Origin: Kofleriaceae bacterium
Lineage (GTDB): Bacteria; Myxococcota_A; Polyangia; Haliangiales; Haliangiaceae
Length of the DNA: 33,179 bases
NCBI GenBank assembly: GCA_018058095.1
Contig: JAGPCO010000084.1
Span: 1 to 33,179 of the forward strand
Direction of reading: 5' to 3'
Shown: piece by piece, positions 20,040-29,535 of the stretch
Position numbering within the stretch: the first letter of the stretch is position 1
Layout of the letters: every line of letters starts with the position of its first letter
The notes under the pieces: generated by a model
The model's database searches: none
Told to the model about the DNA's origin: nothing
What the model saw: only the letters and a program-made list of their open reading frames with translations
Program-made: the position numbers and the translations under genes

Positions 20040-22827
<2,788 letters not shown>

Positions 22828-22882
22828 CCTGCGCGCCCGGCGGCGCGATCCAGATCACCACGCGCTTGGCCCGGCTTTCCTC

Positions 22883-22888
22883 TACAAT
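22883..22888 (+). promoter_or_regulatory. -10 element TACAAT upstream of long leader
   Basis: TACAAT stands out in the GC-rich 151-nt spacer after argG. It would give a leader of about 85-90 nt before ATG 22979, which has a good Shine-Dalgarno. No -35 hexamer is seen at 16-18 nt. Confidence 0.4.
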
Positions 22889-22978
22889 ATCTCCGTCGGT
22901 CGCGGGGGCGGTCGGGCTGCGTCGTCAGGCGCGTCCGTCCTCACCGCGGCGCGAGATGACCCGAGCGAGAGGAACGCG

Positions 22979-24781
22979 ATGACCACGAGCCGCACATCCC
23001 TGCTGTCCATGGCGCTCGCCCTGACCCTGGCCACCGCGGCCGGGTGCGGTGGCGGCGCGGTCGATTGCCCGGTCGGGCAGACCGCCTGCGACGGCGCGTG
23101 TGTCGACGTCCTCACCGATGGTGAGCACTGCGGCACCTGTGGCAACACGTGCGGCGCGGGCCTCTTGTGCGGCAACGGCACCTGCGCCGCCGAGTGCCCG
23201 GCCGGTCAGCTCGAGTGCAGCGAGGGCTGCTCCGACCCGATGACCGACGAGAACAACTGTGGCGGGTGCGGCGCGCCGTGCGCCGCCAACGAGGAGTGCC
23301 GGGGCGGGACCTGCGAGATCCCGTGTGCGCAGATGCTGACCGCGCCGGTCACGGATCAATATGGCCTGAGCTGGGATGGGCTCGAGCGGACGGCGGCCAC
23401 CCTCGACGCCGCCGCCGTGTCGTGCGAGGCGTTCGGCGGCCGTCTGCCGTCGGCGACCGAGCTGTTCCGGGTCAACGCGACCCGGACCGACGAGGTGGCG
23501 CAGGCGTTCCACACCAACCCGCTGTGGTCCCGCACCGCCAGCACCCGAACCGAGCAGGTCGCGATCACCCTGGCCACCGGCGCGGTCAGCGACGCCACCG
23601 CCAGCGCGCCGCTGGCCTACCGCTGCGTGTGCGCGCCACCGACCCCGCCGTTCTTCGGCGGCGCCCGCTGCAACGGCCCGGCCGGCGCGGCGTGTTTCTC
23701 GGTCGGCCGGTACCTCCTCGACGCCGAGGACCGGGTCCCGCTGCGCAAGAGCGCGGCGCTGCAGGAGTGCGCGGCCGAGCGAGCCGGCATCGCCGACGTC
23801 CCCTTGCTGGTGGCCGCCATCATCGGCGGGTTGCCCGGCTCGGGCCAGCTGGTCCAGACCGCCGACCAGGCCACCTACTTCGAGACGACCCAGGTGCGGT
23901 GGAGCGGCGATCCGGCGGCGTGGACCGCCGTCGGCAACCTCGGCGCCACCGCCACCACCAACCGCGCGCCGTTCCGCTGCGCCGGACCGGGCTTCGCGGC
24001 CGGGACCAACCCCAACCCGATCAGCGGGGAGTTCGTCGGCCAGGACGGCGGCTTCAAGGGCGAGGTGGCCGACAGCCCGACCGCCGGCTGGACCGCGGCC
24101 CACGACGCCTGCACCAGCCGCGGCGGCCACCTCGCGCGCTCGGCCGAGATGGCGTCGCTGCTGATCGCCGGCCTGCCCGGCGGCAGCAACACCTTCCTGT
24201 GGACGGCTGATCAGAACGGCTACAACGGCACCGACTTCCTGTCCTCCCTCATCCTGTGGAACGGGCTCGACCCACGCACGCCGTACGAGTACGCGGGCGG
24301 CGGCGGGCCCAACTACACGACGACCTGGTACTACAAGAACTCGGCCTACCCGTTCCGCTGCATCTACTACCCGCTCGACCCGGCGTTCCAGGCCCCGACC
24401 ACCTGCACCGGCGGCTGCTTCAGCATGGCGCTGCCGGGCCCGGTGCCAGCGACGATGTGGTTCGACAGCAACGACCGTGGCCCGGCGACCTGGACCGCGG
24501 CCAGCGCGGCCTGCCGCGCCGAGGGCGGGCGCCTGGCCAGCGCGCGTGACCTGACCGAGGCCATCCGGGGCGGCCTGCCCAACGGGCCCGGGCCCAGCGT
24601 CTGGCTGCACACCAGCGAGCTGGGCGGGTCACCCGCGATCGCCGGCGGCCCCAACACCCTCATCACCCACTGGACCGGGGTCGAGCCGACCTTCTCCGAT
24701 CTGTGGTCGACCCACATGACCTGGGCCGGCGTCGGGGAATCCCACTACTTCCGCTGCATGTGGAGCAACGAGCTGCGCTGA
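22979..24781 (+). CDS. Cys-rich lipoprotein with four lectin-like/DUF1566-like modules
   Basis: ATG 22979 follows AGAGGA (600 aa). The lipobox is TAAGC (Cys23). Residues about 30-118 hold two Cys-rich repeats of the CxxGQxxCxGxCxDxxxDxxxCGxCGxxC type common in myxobacterial surface proteins. Then come four modules of about 110-125 aa, each opening with an aromatic-rich strand, containing xxAxxxCxxxGGRLPSA (or GGHLARS, GGRLASA) and closing with AYRC or PFRC/YFRC. They resemble C-type-lectin-like or DUF1566 (Lcl) folds; this is pattern-based only. Modules 3 and 4 are the best preserved. A surface role such as binding glycans or prey is inferred. The gene converges with the next one, with 25 nt between stops. 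Confidence 0.8.
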   Translation: MTTSRTSLLSMALALTLATAAGCGGGAVDCPVGQTACDGACVDVLTDGEHCGTCGNTCGAGLLCGNGTCAAECPAGQLECSEGCSDPMTDENNCGGCGAPCAANEECRGGTCEIPCAQMLTAPVTDQYGLSWDGLERTAATLDAAAVSCEAFGGRLPSATELFRVNATRTDEVAQAFHTNPLWSRTASTRTEQVAITLATGAVSDATASAPLAYRCVCAPPTPPFFGGARCNGPAGAACFSVGRYLLDAEDRVPLRKSAALQECAAERAGIADVPLLVAAIIGGLPGSGQLVQTADQATYFETTQVRWSGDPAAWTAVGNLGATATTNRAPFRCAGPGFAAGTNPNPISGEFVGQDGGFKGEVADSPTAGWTAAHDACTSRGGHLARSAEMASLLIAGLPGGSNTFLWTADQNGYNGTDFLSSLILWNGLDPRTPYEYAGGGGPNYTTTWYYKNSAYPFRCIYYPLDPAFQAPTTCTGGCFSMALPGPVPATMWFDSNDRGPATWTAASAACRAEGGRLASARDLTEAIRGGLPNGPGPSVWLHTSELGGSPAIAGGPNTLITHWTGVEPTFSDLWSTHMTWAGVGESHYFRCMWSNELR

Positions 24782-24806
24782 GGGCTGCGTCCCGCCGGCG
24801 TCCGGA

Positions 24807-25898
24807 TCACTTCTTCCGGAACGTGCCCATGTCGATCATGCGCAGATCGACCAGGCGGTCGCCGACCAGCTCGAGCTCGCGCGTGTCCTGCAGTGGCCGG
24901 CCATCGTGCATGGTGCGACCGGCGTCGAACACGACCTTGAGGCGCTTGCCGAGCGTGCCCTTGCTCCACGTACACGTCGCCGGCGACACCTCGGCCCGCG
25001 ACGAGATGACCCGGCAGGTGTCACCGTCGACCAGGAGCCACTCCTGGTGGAGCTCGACCCGGAACCGGCGCGGGTCGGTGACCGGATCCTGGTTGTAGGC
25101 CAGGTTGTTGCTGGCCAGGAACGTGCGCGCGTCCTTCTGCCAGAAGGCGTAGGTCTGGCTCGACGACGGCGTGGTCTGCACCCGCAGCTCACCGTCGCGC
25201 TCGAACCGGACGGTGTACGTCGCCTGCTCGGTCTCGTCCTTGCGGACCCGGGTCACCGCGACGGTGCCGTCGGCGCTGACCTTCCAGGTCGTGACCTGAC
25301 CGAAGCTCTTCCAGTCGTTGACCCAGGTCCCGACCAGCGCGCTCAGGCGCCGGGCGGCGTCGGCGGGGTCCAGCTCCGGCGCCTGGACCCGCCCGGCCGC
25401 GGTGATCAGCGGCGCCCACAGGTGCTGGTCCGCCTCGAACTTGCCGTCGTTGACCTTACACGTGCGCAGGCCGGCGATCGGGTTGGCGCTGCCCTCGAGG
25501 CAGGTGCGCAGGTCAGCGGCGATGAACACGCAGCGGTTGAGGAACACCTCGTCGTGCCGGTAGCGCTGCTCGATGGAGGCCGCCTCCACCCCGACCTCGG
25601 TCAGCGTGGGCCCGATCGCGGTCCACGCCTTGTCGAGGATGCGCTGGCACTGCGCCGCCGCCACCGGGTCGCGCAGCGCGTTACCGGAGCCGCTGCCCGA
25701 GCCGCTGCCGGCGCCGAGGCCGGAACCGGACCCGGCCGCGCTGCCGGCGCTGCCGGCGCCCGACCCGGGCCGAATCGGTGCACTCGAACCCGCGCTCGAA
25801 CCCGCGCCCGAACCGGGGGATGGGCCAGCGTCGCCCTTGCTGCCACAGGCCGCGGCGAGAGAACCAGAGATGACGAGGACGAAGTCGCGCAGTTGCAT
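24807..25898 (-). CDS. Lipoprotein with Gly-Ser-rich linker and lipocalin-like C-terminal domain
   Basis: ATG 25898 gives 363 aa. The signal peptide ends LAAAC (Cys18). Residues about 25-75 are almost entirely Gly, Ser and Ala (GSGAGS-type repeats), a flexible tether. Residues 78-175 are helical with Cys in AAQCQRIL, NRCVF, LRTCLEG and LRTCKVN. Residues about 195-363 form a beta-rich domain opening LVGTWVNDWKSF and including VSADGTVAV and TYTVRFERDGELRV, reminiscent of lipocalin-like domains. Two more Cys (DTCRV, PATCTW) lie in it. No specific function is recognised. It is preceded by the exact GTAGACTGCGG motif. Confidence 0.78.
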   Translation of the reverse strand: MQLRDFVLVISGSLAAACGSKGDAGPSPGSGAGSSAGSSAPIRPGSGAGSAGSAAGSGSGLGAGSGSGSGSGNALRDPVAAAQCQRILDKAWTAIGPTLTEVGVEAASIEQRYRHDEVFLNRCVFIAADLRTCLEGSANPIAGLRTCKVNDGKFEADQHLWAPLITAAGRVQAPELDPADAARRLSALVGTWVNDWKSFGQVTTWKVSADGTVAVTRVRKDETEQATYTVRFERDGELRVQTTPSSSQTYAFWQKDARTFLASNNLAYNQDPVTDPRRFRVELHQEWLLVDGDTCRVISSRAEVSPATCTWSKGTLGKRLKVVFDAGRTMHDGRPLQDTRELELVGDRLVDLRMIDMGTFRKK

Positions 25899-25904
25899 GC
25901 CCGC

Positions 25905-25910
25905 AGTCTA
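25905..25910 (-). promoter_or_regulatory. -10-like TAGACT within GTAGACTGCGG, 6 nt before ATG
   Basis: On the minus strand the sequence runs GTAGACTGCGGGCATG, ending in the start codon at 25898. This is the same 11-mer as before speD and the HExxH/Cys-cluster gene. The spacing predicts a leaderless transcript. Confidence 0.5.
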
Positions 25911-25924
25911 CGCCAGCGCCGTGG

Positions 25925-26398
25925 TCAGCGCCGGCGTCGGCGCGGCGGCGGGCGCCAGGCCACGTTCTCGAGCGACGCGACCCGACGCAGGCTGCCGATG
26001 TGCAGCACCGCCACGCCCTCCTCGTCGAGCATCCGCGCCTGCCCGATCTCGCCGCCCGGCAGCTTGTCGAGCAGGCCACCATCGTCCCGCACCACCCTCC
26101 AGGTCGGCACCGGGCGCCGCTGCCCGCGCTCCTCGGCGCTGGCCTCGGCGACGATACGCAGGAAGATCCCGGTGGTGAGCGGGCAGGTGTAGTCGGCCTT
26201 GTGGTCGGTGGCGAGCCGGGCCCGCAGCGCGCCCATGGTGAGCACCTTGCCGGTCGGGATGGTCGCGACCAGGTCCTCGATCTCGCGCGGCGACGAGATG
26301 AGCATCTTGCCGGCGGGGTAGCTGGCGCCCTTGGCCACGGCCAGCGTCTCGACCCGCGGCGGGGGCGCACCGTCACGCTTGGCGACTGCGGACGACAT
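25925..26398 (-). CDS. MGMT/ATL-like DNA-binding domain protein without alkyl-acceptor cysteine
   Basis: The 157-aa protein starts at ATG 26398. The core reads IPTGKVLTMGALRARLATDHKAD, then TCPLTTGIFLRIVAEA, then PTWRVVRDDGGLLDKLPGG...QARMLDEEGV. This follows the C-terminal domain of O6-alkylguanine-DNA alkyltransferases (IPxGxVxTYGxxA, P[CW]HRVV, G.L..., Q..LL..EGV). PTWRVV stands where active MGMTs have PCHRVV, so it lacks the methyl-accepting Cys, as alkyltransferase-like (ATL) proteins do. The TCPLTTGIFLRI block is an insertion I associate with a bacterial MGMT-family subgroup of unknown role. The C-terminus is Arg-rich. It begins 4 nt after the upstream gene's stop, so the two are probably co-transcribed. 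Confidence 0.72.
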   Translation of the reverse strand: MSSAVAKRDGAPPPRVETLAVAKGASYPAGKMLISSPREIEDLVATIPTGKVLTMGALRARLATDHKADYTCPLTTGIFLRIVAEASAEERGQRRPVPTWRVVRDDGGLLDKLPGGEIGQARMLDEEGVAVLHIGSLRRVASLENVAWRPPPRRRRR

Positions 26399-26402
26399 GA
26401 GC

Positions 26403-27497
26403 TCAGCCTATCGTCAGGCCCACGCGCTGTCGCGCGGTGAGGCAGTGTTCGGACCCGAGGGTGAAGTCGCGGCAGGTGCGCGGTCGGTCCGGGTACACGA
26501 CGCAGGCGTACGGGCTGACCCTGGGCCCCTGCGCGGCCTCGACCGCCTCACCGCCGACCAGGGCGGCGCAGCGGTCACCGGCGCGCTGGATCTCGAGGTA
26601 GCTGCCGCGGTCGACCACCAGGTCCGGGTGCTGGCGCACGAACCGCTCGCGCCGGCCGACCTCGACCGACTGGTAGGCCGCGCGGCAACACGCGCCGCAG
26701 CGCTGGCAGTCGACGCTGCCAGCTGGCTCCCACCGCTCGCAGCCCGGCCAGGCCAGGTCGATCCGGGTCGTGGTGTGCCGGCACCGCTCCGCCTTGCGAC
26801 CAGGGCCGCCCTGGTAGCGCCAGGCGCAGGTCCCGCAGCTCCGCTCGGCCCGCACCAGCCCCGCCGGCAAGCCGGTCGGGTGTGGCGGTGGGGGCGCGGT
26901 GAGGCCCTGCCACAGCGAGGGCAACTCGCCCGGCGCCGGGGCCGCCGTCGGCGCCCGCGCCAGCGCGGCGTCGACCTGGCGCGCCAGCGCGGCGGTCGCC
27001 TCGAGCGCCGCCGTCAACGCCGGGGCCCACGGCCGATCGCCGACGCGGGTCAGGCCGCGGATGGCCGCCTGCACCGACGGCGCATCGCGATCGCCCAGCG
27101 GATCGTCCCCGAGCTGATCCCAGAACGCCGGGCGATGATCGGTGGTGGGCGCAAACAGCTCGCGCAGGCCATAGCGCCCGGCCAGGACCCACTGCAAGCG
27201 CAGGCACCCGTGCTCACGCCAGAGATCGTCGTCGCCGACGTTGTCCATGCCCCAGTCCGGGCGAGCGAAGGCGTCGGGCCCCTCGACCAGGGAGTGACAC
27301 AGCTCGTGGAAGATCATCTGCGCCAGCGAGTCGTCGGCGTCGAGGCTGGGCTCGTCGCCGACGATCAGCACGCCCCGACCGTCGGTGGCGGCATACGCCG
27401 CCGGAGAACGGACCACCTGGAGGCCGACCTGGCGGGCACAGGCGAGCCAGATCTCGGCCAGCGGGTCGACGTAGCGGGCGCGGATGGCGCGGGTCAC
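26403..27497 (-). CDS. HExxH metallopeptidase-like protein fused to Cys4 and YkgJ-type Cys-cluster domains
   Basis: GTG 27497 gives 364 aa. The N-terminal domain (about 1-150) has MIFHELCHSLVEG with HELCH at 64-68, a zincin HExxH motif, and an acidic WGMDNVGDDDLWREHGC region that could supply the third ligand. A Pro-rich linker leads to a first cluster CGTC...C...C (Cys221, 224, 239, 253). The C-terminal domain carries CQRCGACC (264-271) followed by DRCAAL, YACVVYPDRPRTCRDF and EHC, the layout of YkgJ-type zinc/iron-binding cluster proteins. It is cytoplasmic, with no signal peptide. Whether it is a peptidase is inferred. It is first in a unit with the MGMT-like gene. Confidence 0.78.
   Translation of the reverse strand: MTRAIRARYVDPLAEIWLACARQVGLQVVRSPAAYAATDGRGVLIVGDEPSLDADDSLAQMIFHELCHSLVEGPDAFARPDWGMDNVGDDDLWREHGCLRLQWVLAGRYGLRELFAPTTDHRPAFWDQLGDDPLGDRDAPSVQAAIRGLTRVGDRPWAPALTAALEATAALARQVDAALARAPTAAPAPGELPSLWQGLTAPPPPHPTGLPAGLVRAERSCGTCAWRYQGGPGRKAERCRHTTTRIDLAWPGCERWEPAGSVDCQRCGACCRAAYQSVEVGRRERFVRQHPDLVVDRGSYLEIQRAGDRCAALVGGEAVEAAQGPRVSPYACVVYPDRPRTCRDFTLGSEHCLTARQRVGLTIG
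26405..26410 (-). promoter_or_regulatory. -10-like TAGGCT, 6 nt before internal ATG
   Basis: On the minus strand TAGGCT GAGCTC ATG places a TAnnnT hexamer inside the 3' end of the HExxH/Cys-cluster gene, 6 nt before the MGMT-like start. It could give that gene its own leaderless transcript. Confidence 0.3.
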
Positions 27498-27503
27498 CGC
27501 CGC

Positions 27504-27509
27504 AGTCTA
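27504..27509 (-). promoter_or_regulatory. -10-like TAGACT within GTAGACTGCGG, 6 nt before GTG
   Basis: On the minus strand the sequence runs GTAGACTGCGGCGGTG, ending in the start codon at 27497. This is the third exact copy of the 11-mer in the window. Confidence 0.5.
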
Positions 27510-27538
27510 CTGCAAGCCGTGGCGCCGACCGCGCCGGG

Positions 27539-28372
27539 TCAGGCGCCGACCGCGCGCTGGCGGGCGAAGGCGTGGACCGCGGCCTCGACCCGAGGCTGGC
27601 TGGCCAGCCCGAGGGCGATCACCGCGGCCGACAGGGTCACCCCCATCGATTGCCGGTAGGCCTCGGCCGCGCGCAGGCGATCGGAGGTCAAGAGGCCGGC
27701 GGCGACGAGGTAGGCGCCGAAGCCGGCCCGATCGGCTCGGCGCGGCGGCGGGATCGGCGGCGGAGCCAGGCCGGGCGACGGGGTGGGTGCCGGCGGCGGG
27801 CGCAACGAGGGGATGTCGACGCGCAGCGCGGGTGGCGGTGTGGGCGGGCGCGCCGGCCCCGCGCTTGCCGGGGGCGGGCGGGTCCCACGAGCCAGCCGCG
27901 CCGGCGCAGCAGGCGCCGGCGCCGCGGCTGGCGGCGAAGCGGCGGCGCCGGATCGCGCAGGGGCCGGATGGGCCGGGGGCCTCGGCGCGGCCGGGGGCCT
28001 CGGCGCGGCCGGCGGTGGTTCGCGCAGCAGCCGCTCGACCACGCCGAGCCACTCCGCCGCCTCGCGATCCCGTGGATCCATCGAGCAGGCATCTGCCAGG
28101 AGCTGGCGCGCCTCGGCCAGCTGGTCGCGCCGGGCCGCCATCATGCCAAGCAGGCGATAGGCGCCCGCGCAACGCGGGTCGCGCCGCAGCACCTCCGTCA
28201 GCACGCGCTCGGCCTCGGCGAGCCGGCGCAGGCGGATGAGGGCCTGGGCCAGCAGGAGGCGGAGCTCGAGCTGGTCGGCCCCGGCCGCCAGGGCGTCCTC
28301 GCACACCGCCACCACGCCGGGGTAGTGCCGCCCGGCCAGCAGCTCGGTCGCGGTGGTGAGGATCGCGTCCAT
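27539..28372 (-). CDS. TPR protein with Pro-rich linker and MshEN/GspE-N-like C-terminal domain
   Basis: ATG 28372 gives 277 aa. Residues 1-110 are about three TPR hairpins (ATELLAGRHYPGVVAVCEDALAAG, LRLLLAQALIRLRRLAEAERVL, AYRLLGMMAARRDQLAEARQLL). Residues about 115-215 are a Pro/Ala/Arg-rich linker. Residues 216-277 (FGAYLVAAGLLTSDRLRAAEAYRQ then LSAAVIALGLASQPRVEAAVHAFA) show the doubled LGxxLVxxGLIxxxxLxxAL pattern of type II secretion/PilB ATPase N-terminal (MshEN-like) domains. These can bind c-di-GMP in some proteins; the leading RLG is replaced here, so binding is uncertain. It is a cytoplasmic adaptor candidate. The 41-nt gap to the downstream HExxH gene allows read-through. Confidence 0.75.
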   Translation of the reverse strand: MDAILTTATELLAGRHYPGVVAVCEDALAAGADQLELRLLLAQALIRLRRLAEAERVLTEVLRRDPRCAGAYRLLGMMAARRDQLAEARQLLADACSMDPRDREAAEWLGVVERLLREPPPAAPRPPAAPRPPAHPAPARSGAAASPPAAAPAPAAPARLARGTRPPPASAGPARPPTPPPALRVDIPSLRPPPAPTPSPGLAPPPIPPPRRADRAGFGAYLVAAGLLTSDRLRAAEAYRQSMGVTLSAAVIALGLASQPRVEAAVHAFARQRAVGA

Positions 28373-28379
28373 GACGGTC

Positions 28380-28385
28380 TGGATA
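28380..28385 (-). promoter_or_regulatory. Weak -10-like TATCCA, 7 nt before start codon
   Basis: On the minus strand TATCCA is followed by seven bases and ATG 28372. The hexamer is a poor match but has the same spacing as the better examples. Confidence 0.2.
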
Positions 28386-28434
28386 GCAAGCGCAGGGCCA
28401 GCACGCGCGCGCCCTAACTCGCTGATCTCCAGTT

Positions 28435-28473
28435 GGTGCCCCCCCCTCAGTGGCGCGATCTGTGGGGGGCGCC
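28435..28473. other. C-run/G-run hairpin in divergent spacer
   Basis: GGTGCCCCCC (28435-28444) can pair with GGGGGGCGCC (28464-28473), one G-T pair, 19-nt loop, between the two divergent TPR genes. There is no T-tract. Function unknown; it may be an operator or simply a structured spacer. Confidence 0.3.
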
Positions 28474-28547
28474 CGACGTCGACCGTCGCCTGCGGGCTGC
28501 GCCCCCGAGTGATCGGGACGCAGGTGGTGGCGCCCGCCGACATCCTC

Positions 28548-28553
28548 CATACT
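28548..28553 (+). promoter_or_regulatory. -10-like CATACT, 7 nt before start codon
   Basis: CATACT is followed by GGTCCAC and the ATG at 28561, the same spacing as at 4088 and 20027. It would drive the three-gene TPR operon. Confidence 0.4.
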
Positions 28554-28560
28554 GGTCCAC

Positions 28561-29535
28561 ATGCGAGGTGGTGCACGCCGGCTCCTGCTCGGGCTGGCCC
28601 TGACCCTGGTGGCGGGTCCGAGCTGGGCCGACCGGGCCGAGGAGCCCACGGCCGAGGCCACCACCCCGCGCGACTTCTGGCTCGAGCTGATCGACCGCCA
28701 CGGCCCTCGGGCGCGCCGCCTGGCCCAGCTGGCGGAGCGGGCGCTCGCCGCCACCACCTCCCTGCACCAGGCCGACGCCGATCCGTCCGGGTCGCAGCAG
28801 GCCCGCCTTGGCCGCGAGGCGCTGGAGCTGGCCCGGGCTGGCGCCGCCCTCCGCCCACGCGATCCAGAGCTGCTGCTGATGGTCGCCCGCGCCGCCGCCC
28901 GGCAGGCGCCGGCCGAGGCCGAGGCCGCGCTTACCACGTACTTCGCCGTCACCGGCGCCGGCACCAACGCCGACCCGGGCGCCACCATCCGCACCGGCGA
29001 GCCGGTCGCCGCCGCCTTCGAGCTGCGCGGCATGCTCGCGGTCCGGACCGGCCGCGTCGACGCCGGCATCGCCGACCTGCAGCGCGGCGACGGCGGCCTG
29101 CCCGGCGCGACCATCGCGCTGGCCTCGGCGCTGGCCCAGCGCGGCCAGCTCGATCAGGCGATCGCGCTGCTGGCGGCCCCGCGCCGGGTGGTCGGGCCGT
29201 ACTCGGCCGACGCGGTCCGGGCCGCGCTGGCGCTGGCGGTGGCCTACGATCGCGACGAGCAGATCGGCGCGGCGTTCGCGGTGCTGGCCGAGCTCGAGCG
29301 CACGCTGGGCAGCAACCTGCTGAGCATGGCGCAGGGCGCGATCGACGAGGCCTGGTTCGTCCAGCCGGGCGAGCGTGCCTACTACCTCGCGCTGCTGTAC
29401 GAGGTCACCGGCTTCCTGCCCGAGGCGCGCGCGATGTGGCTGCACTACGCCGCCGGTGAACGGGCCGCGTTCACCCGTCGGGCTCAGGCCCACGTCGACG
29501 CCATCGATCGGCTGCGCCGCCGGGGCCAGCCGTGA
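28561..29535 (+). CDS. Exported TPR-type protein, first gene of three-gene operon
   Basis: ATG 28561 gives 324 aa. The signal peptide (RRLLLGLALTLVAGPSWAD) is cleaved near residue 22. The rest is helical, with TPR-like hairpins: ALELARAGAALRPRDPELLLMVARAAARQ, AAFELRGMLAVRTGRVDAGIADL, ATIALASALAQRGQLDQAIALL and AYYLALLYEVTGFLPEARAMWLHY. A periplasmic scaffold or partner-binding role is inferred. The last hairpin, ending EARAMWLHYAAGE, resembles AYYYLALAHEALGNTQAAIAHYDRFL of the next gene, so the two may be related by duplication. The stop overlaps the next GTG by 4 nt. Confidence 0.8.
   Translation: MRGGARRLLLGLALTLVAGPSWADRAEEPTAEATTPRDFWLELIDRHGPRARRLAQLAERALAATTSLHQADADPSGSQQARLGREALELARAGAALRPRDPELLLMVARAAARQAPAEAEAALTTYFAVTGAGTNADPGATIRTGEPVAAAFELRGMLAVRTGRVDAGIADLQRGDGGLPGATIALASALAQRGQLDQAIALLAAPRRVVGPYSADAVRAALALAVAYDRDEQIGAAFAVLAELERTLGSNLLSMAQGAIDEAWFVQPGERAYYLALLYEVTGFLPEARAMWLHYAAGERAAFTRRAQAHVDAIDRLRRRGQP

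Follow-up and report, generated by a model that had tools for sequence, protein, structure and literature searches.

What does a protein do that carries an HExxH motif, a four-cysteine cluster and a YkgJ-type cysteine cluster in one chain, and does the MGMT-like gene behind it belong to the same system? The question is raised by a contig of a Kofleriaceae bacterium (JAGPCO010000084.1), of which a stretch of 33,179 nucleotides, here called the window, was analysed. A sequence-only reading had proposed that the two genes are co-transcribed, and that a putative protease, metal or redox clusters and a DNA-binding module could form a stress- or damage-responsive switch. The fusion ORF is intact in the ORF listing of the window and encodes 364 amino acids from a GTG start (Table 1). 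Its TGA stop is followed by GCTC and then by the ATG of the MGMT-like ORF, confirming the reported 4-nt gap. Short gaps separate the pair from a TPR-type ORF upstream of the fusion (27539–28858) and from a further ORF downstream (24807–25898), both on the same strand, and the two genes may therefore belong to a longer gene run. A sigma-70 scan of 24700–28900 gave no promoter-like site, and co-transcription of the two genes is a reading drawn from spacing and strand. Elsewhere in the window, an ORF at 22535–24781 (+) matches STIG1-like cysteine-rich and Xlink domains and apparently encodes a secreted protein.

Table 1. Features of the fusion locus and of genes found near the fusion in related genomes. 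The first seven rows give window positions.
Feature	Position	Strand	Evidence or remark
Fusion gene: HExxH metalloenzyme domain (predicted), Cys4 and YkgJ-type CxxCxxCC domain	26403–27497	-	ORF, PF03692, relatives, alignments
N-terminal zincin-like / EpmC-like domain (predicted), aa 11–180	26958–27467	-	AlphaFold model; ArdC Z 6.2; IrrE Z 3.8; sub-threshold PF04315 matches of family members
HELCH, aa 64–68: two predicted His metal ligands and predicted catalytic Glu	27294–27308	-	HExxH in 56/56 aligned N-domains
Glu95, predicted third metal ligand, aligned with EpmC Glu98	27213–27215	-	56/56; spacing against EpmC and PMC4231759
Cys4 cluster C221, C224, C239, C253 (CxxCxW...C...C)	26739–26837	-	46/46 C-halves
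YkgJ-type domain, aa 263–352: CQRCGACC (aa 264–271) plus C310, C332, C342, C352	26442–26711	-	PF03692; all eight Cys invariant
MGMT-like (PF01035) ORF, 157 aa, 4 nt downstream of fusion	25925–26398	-	Neighbour in window genome only; outside conserved unit
Ada-AlkA gene	L049:4656–6684; L046, L057, L065; contigs G003:C257, G004:C300, G005:C340, G014:C495	divergent to fusion	
Small conserved protein	L046:6758–7198; L049:6688–6966; L039:5635–5928; others; window genome G000:C194:16105–16242		

The domain combination is real, unusual and conserved; the MGMT-like partner first tied to it is not. PF03692 (CxxCxxCC) matches residues 263–346 of the window protein at its cut-off (E 1.3e-4, 23–23.5 bits against 23). 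Protein searches found the fusion family in 44 of 56 relatives, and full-length relatives, 44–65% identical, are spread over the family, order and class. His64, Glu65, Cys67, His68, Asp81-Trp82-Gly83, Glu95, Gln102 and twelve cysteines are invariant in 26 aligned full-length copies. When standalone copies were added, HExxH and Glu95 were kept in every one of 56 aligned N-domains and Cys67 in 53; all 12 cysteines were kept in each of 46 aligned C-terminal halves. Left out of these counts were two paralogues (G005 C306, locus L067, and G010 C109, locus L068), in which HExxH has decayed to HQLCH and DRLCR with the cysteine half intact. Full-length relatives with invariant HExxH and cysteines place the combination far beyond chance. 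Literature searches returned no description of an HExxH, Cys4 and YkgJ-type architecture. The sequence-only reading was right that the three motifs share one polypeptide. The family is a conserved, undescribed two-part metal protein built of known metal-enzyme parts.

The link between the two halves is the firmest functional clue. In a phylum scan, 124 of 282 genomes gave matches to the halves, and the 94 that exceeded a 60-bit cut-off were sorted by arrangement. The fusion was found in 27 genomes, both halves as separate genes in another 27, the N-domain only in 32 and the C-terminal half only in eight. Among genomes without the fusion, 27 thus carry both halves, 32 the first, eight the second and 188 neither (odds ratio 20, Fisher P 2e-13, uncorrected for kinship). 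Six genomes (G105, G141, G199, G286, G290 and G311) have the separate halves in head-to-head orientation, within 3 kb of each other. Together with the co-occurrence, this arrangement indicates that the N- and C-terminal halves probably form one functional unit. The N-domain tree does not set fused forms apart from unfused ones: the two are interleaved, and well-supported branches force at least four changes, so fusion or fission occurred more than once. The halves are not inseparable, since the two paralogues lost HExxH yet kept the cysteine half.

An AlphaFold model of the N-domain, built with nine input sequences, is fairly confident up to residue 180 (pLDDT of the block mostly 60–90) and not at all after it. 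The predicted order is a helix, three strands, the HExxH helix (58–72) and a second helix (89–107) bearing the invariant Glu95, which falls 30 residues after HExxH. In this prediction HELCH lies on a helix of a zincin-like topology, as the sequence-only reading had suggested, though the structural matches are weak. The best was to the ArdC metalloprotease domain (6sna, Z 6.2, 125 aligned), followed by IrrE at Z 3.8; IrrE, selecase and abylysin gave Z 3.4–3.8, with minigluzincins near (VIA-align), and values below 8 may reflect merely a common arrangement. Like ArdC (MPTase-PolyVal, PF18818) and IrrE/ImmA (PF06114), the domain as modelled pairs HExxH with a Glu on the following helix. Unlike them, the fusion protein has no ssDNA-binding domain, and no HTH or sensor domain of their kind. 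Pfam scans with the N-domain family gave no match to PF06114 or PF18818. Alignment by hhalign gave about 70–74% to EpmC against 45% to M78, and M78/IrrE membership was rejected on this low value and the missing Pfam match. The corresponding 11% for ArdC is not evidence, as the ArdC alignment contained spurious segments.

EpmC (PF04315) was the family matched by most members, weakly and in 6 of 22 diverse ones (best E 0.0011). The best member scored 19.1 bits against a curated cut-off of 23.8, and the window protein itself gave no match. A PF04315 scan of 140 genomes placed family members from G133, G105 (twice), G091, G145 and G141 among the top sub-threshold matches, that of G133 spanning profile positions 46–111. 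The top PDB sequence match of the N-domain was also weak, to the EpmC protein YfcM (3wtr, E 0.19). The similarity is limited to about 22–66 residues, below the Pfam cut-off, and is not significant beyond the motif region. Within it, the extended motif HExxHx4[GA]x6-8D[WFY]G was restricted, among 257 HExxH segments of the compared loci, to members of the family and a pair of EpmC proteins; the family is over-represented in this set, which makes it a comparison with about 180 other segments and no survey. The M78 and ArdC segments in the set lack the motif. In YfcM the metal ligands are His59, His63 and Glu98, and Asp105, seven residues past Glu98, is bound to His59 (PMC4231759). In the sequence alignment Glu95 is likewise followed seven residues on by Gln102, which Glu replaces in G133. 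The N-domain therefore shares with EpmC, at the level of sequence, HExxHx4Gx7D[WFY]G, a Glu in the position of third ligand and an acidic or amide residue at Glu+7. YfcM was not among the structural-search matches listed for the model, which says little, as its crystal structure is partly disordered between the two metal helices (PMC4231759). From motif and model we take the N-domain to belong to a zincin-like group including EpmC, ArdC and IrrE, with an active-site region nearest to that of EpmC.

The target is probably not that of EpmC. EpmB makes the EpmC substrate, beta-lysyl-EF-P. Just four of 282 genomes had a match over the EpmB cut-off, and all four are without the N-domain family; EF-P was rejected as target on this absence. 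Besides having no EpmB partner, the family differs from EpmC in its cysteine module, which is either fused or linked. One Myxococcota genome has a full EpmC (166 bits; L147, G058:C54:6175–6615) and also an EpmB-like match just under cut-off, but gave no member of the N-domain family.

The main rival reading, which we hold to be unlikely though well worth weighing, is a metal- or redox-gated peptidase. On this view the N-domain would be an ArdC/IrrE-type zinc minigluzincin that cleaves a regulatory protein under the control of the cysteine half, which would sense or store metal. The ranking of ArdC, IrrE, selecase and abylysin in the structural search argues for it, although at Z below 8. An ArdC-like protein is also the best non-family HExxH match of the N-domain profile, with 21 bits against 17 and 13 for EpmC proteins, and a 30-residue spacing from HExxH to the third ligand suits gluzincins. 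The residues after HExxH are nevertheless EpmC-like, and no conserved regulator gene adjoins the family, whose neighbours vary between families.

All 13 scanned C-terminal halves matched PF03692 (best E 2e-9), while their N-terminal knuckle (CxxCxW...C...C) falls in no named family. The structure model of this half is poor (pLDDT 43), so no fold is claimed, and no solved structure matches it by sequence. The family shares the eight cysteines of the domain with YkgJ and other PF03692 proteins, but adds the Cys4 knuckle and a fused or linked HExxH domain. Paper searches for YkgJ/CxxCxxCC proteins found no functional study. In the flagellin lysine methylase FliB, a [4Fe-4S] cluster is bound by a CX4CX3CC motif that has been likened to PF03692, and eight cysteines are conserved (PMC8598068). 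By this analogy, iron-sulfur binding by the C-terminal half is plausible. FliB differs in motif spacing and SAM chemistry, and an HExxH domain is not described for it.

We tentatively favour, ahead of the gated peptidase, an Fe(II) oxygenase that acts on a protein target and is served by a cysteine-rich iron or iron-sulfur module. The fusion product would then be one functional unit of two metal-binding modules. Its N-terminal domain would be a small HExxH metalloenzyme, with His64, His68 and Glu95 as the metal ligands. The C-terminal half may carry iron or an iron-sulfur cluster (or zinc) on the CxxCxxCC set and a further metal on the Cys4 knuckle, and would supply the active site of the N-terminal domain with metal or electrons, or act as its redox sensor. 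As in EpmC (YfcM), the likeliest chemistry would be that an Fe(II) 2-His-1-carboxylate centre oxygenates a protein target. Few protein hydroxylases fall outside the 2-oxoglutarate and pterin classes, and EpmC is among them; the source of its electrons is not known, and the authors of the YfcM study infer an electron-transfer component that is yet to be named (PMC4231759). The cysteine module could give the electrons that EpmC is thought to get from that component. Counting against the oxygenase are the first ranks of ArdC and IrrE in the structural search and the 32 genomes that have the N-domain without the cysteine half. So do the short, sub-cut-off likeness to EpmC, the lack of EpmB, the two paralogues with decayed HExxH and the poor model of the C-terminal half. 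Architecture, conservation, the motif shared with EpmC, the zincin-like model and the genomic link between the halves are results of computation; which metal is bound, the oxygenase activity, the electron transfer and the protein target are inferred.

A natural family that joins an EpmC-like site with a cysteine cluster module, by fusion or pairing, would open the EpmC electron-source question to test, and would give YkgJ/CxxCxxCC proteins a first functional context. If the enzyme is instead a peptidase, it would be a small gluzincin that carries its own metal or redox module. We rate the interest as moderate, and higher if the combination of an EpmC-like enzyme and its electron donor is true. 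A further and more novel proposal, to which we give a low likelihood, is a protein-hydroxylating or -oxygenating system of Myxococcota. It would pair an EpmC-type Fe(II) enzyme with a dedicated Fe-S electron donor, fused, head to head or dispersed, and would act on a target other than EF-P, possibly the small conserved neighbour protein described below or a translation component.

It is improbable that the cysteine half is the working part of a metallochaperone or metal-storage protein in which the role of the HExxH domain is limited to storing or exchanging zinc or iron. Such a role would suit the two paralogues without HExxH and the eight genomes with the C-terminal half alone. The invariance of HExxH and Glu95 in the other 56 N-domains, standalone copies included, is however what is expected of an active site.

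We give slightly less credit still to an alkylation-damage response, in which the metalloenzyme would be induced with, or act beside, Ada-AlkA/OGT or MGMT-like proteins. The ORF directly after the fusion in the window matches the MGMT DNA-binding domain (PF01035) just under cut-off (E 6e-6, 26.4 bits against 27). In all nine sequences compared it reads P-[YT]-W-R where PCHR has the catalytic Cys-His. With Tyr/Thr-Trp in place of Cys-His, it is not a methyltransferase. The ORF shares the DNA-binding domain match with ATL/MGMT-like proteins, but its catalytic Cys-His is replaced and it is no conserved partner of the fusion. Of 30 genomes in the window's family, most of which have the fusion, nine carry the gene; in the phylum it is present in 9 of 282, with no second case beside the fusion. 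In all eight relatives with both genes these lie on different contigs, and the 4–10 kb flanks of the relatives' MGMT-like genes do not contain the fusion gene. The adjacency is therefore unique to the window genome, where the MGMT-like neighbour is a local accident. We rejected the pair as a conserved system, and the proposed protease/DNA-binding switch is not supported.

Some other link to alkylation repair may exist. In eight same-genus genomes (G001, G003, G004, G005, G007, G012, G013 and G014) a divergent Ada-AlkA gene lies beside the fusion. Its product has an Ada Zn domain, HTH_18, AlkA_N and HhH-GPD, and OGT adjoins it where annotated (L049). Other genera have Ada-AlkA elsewhere or absent near the fusion gene, however, and the window genome gave only partial, distant Ada-like matches and no full-length match to this Ada-AlkA.

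Nor is Ada-AlkA the constant neighbour. That place is taken by a small ORF of 57–100 aa (MxGDIALAGFVLTAEEWxxLDxxxRAQLL), which lies between the fusion and Ada-AlkA in the same-genus genomes. It is the steadiest neighbour of the fusion in the window's family, where it lies immediately beside it or about 1 kb off in most genomes. Pfam matches of the small protein are weak, the best to a KRAB box (E 0.0028). It is a possible partner or substrate of the fusion protein. In the window genome it lies on another contig, on which neither the fusion nor Ada-AlkA was found, so the gene order in the window is derived or was split by assembly.

A role in anti-phage defence was rejected, as neither the fusion nor the MGMT-like protein matches PADLOC. 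No single neighbour is conserved across families. Within the window's family, flotillin, TlpA-like and 5'-3' exonuclease genes are also found nearby. Two other families, f16 and f17, have rpsB-tsf-pyrH-frr downstream of the N-domain gene, which is a fusion in f17 (L060, L094, L104, L105, L106 and L107). In three genomes, part of family f39, a Leu/Phe-tRNA-protein transferase gene (aat) closely follows a standalone N-domain gene (L110, L114 and L115).
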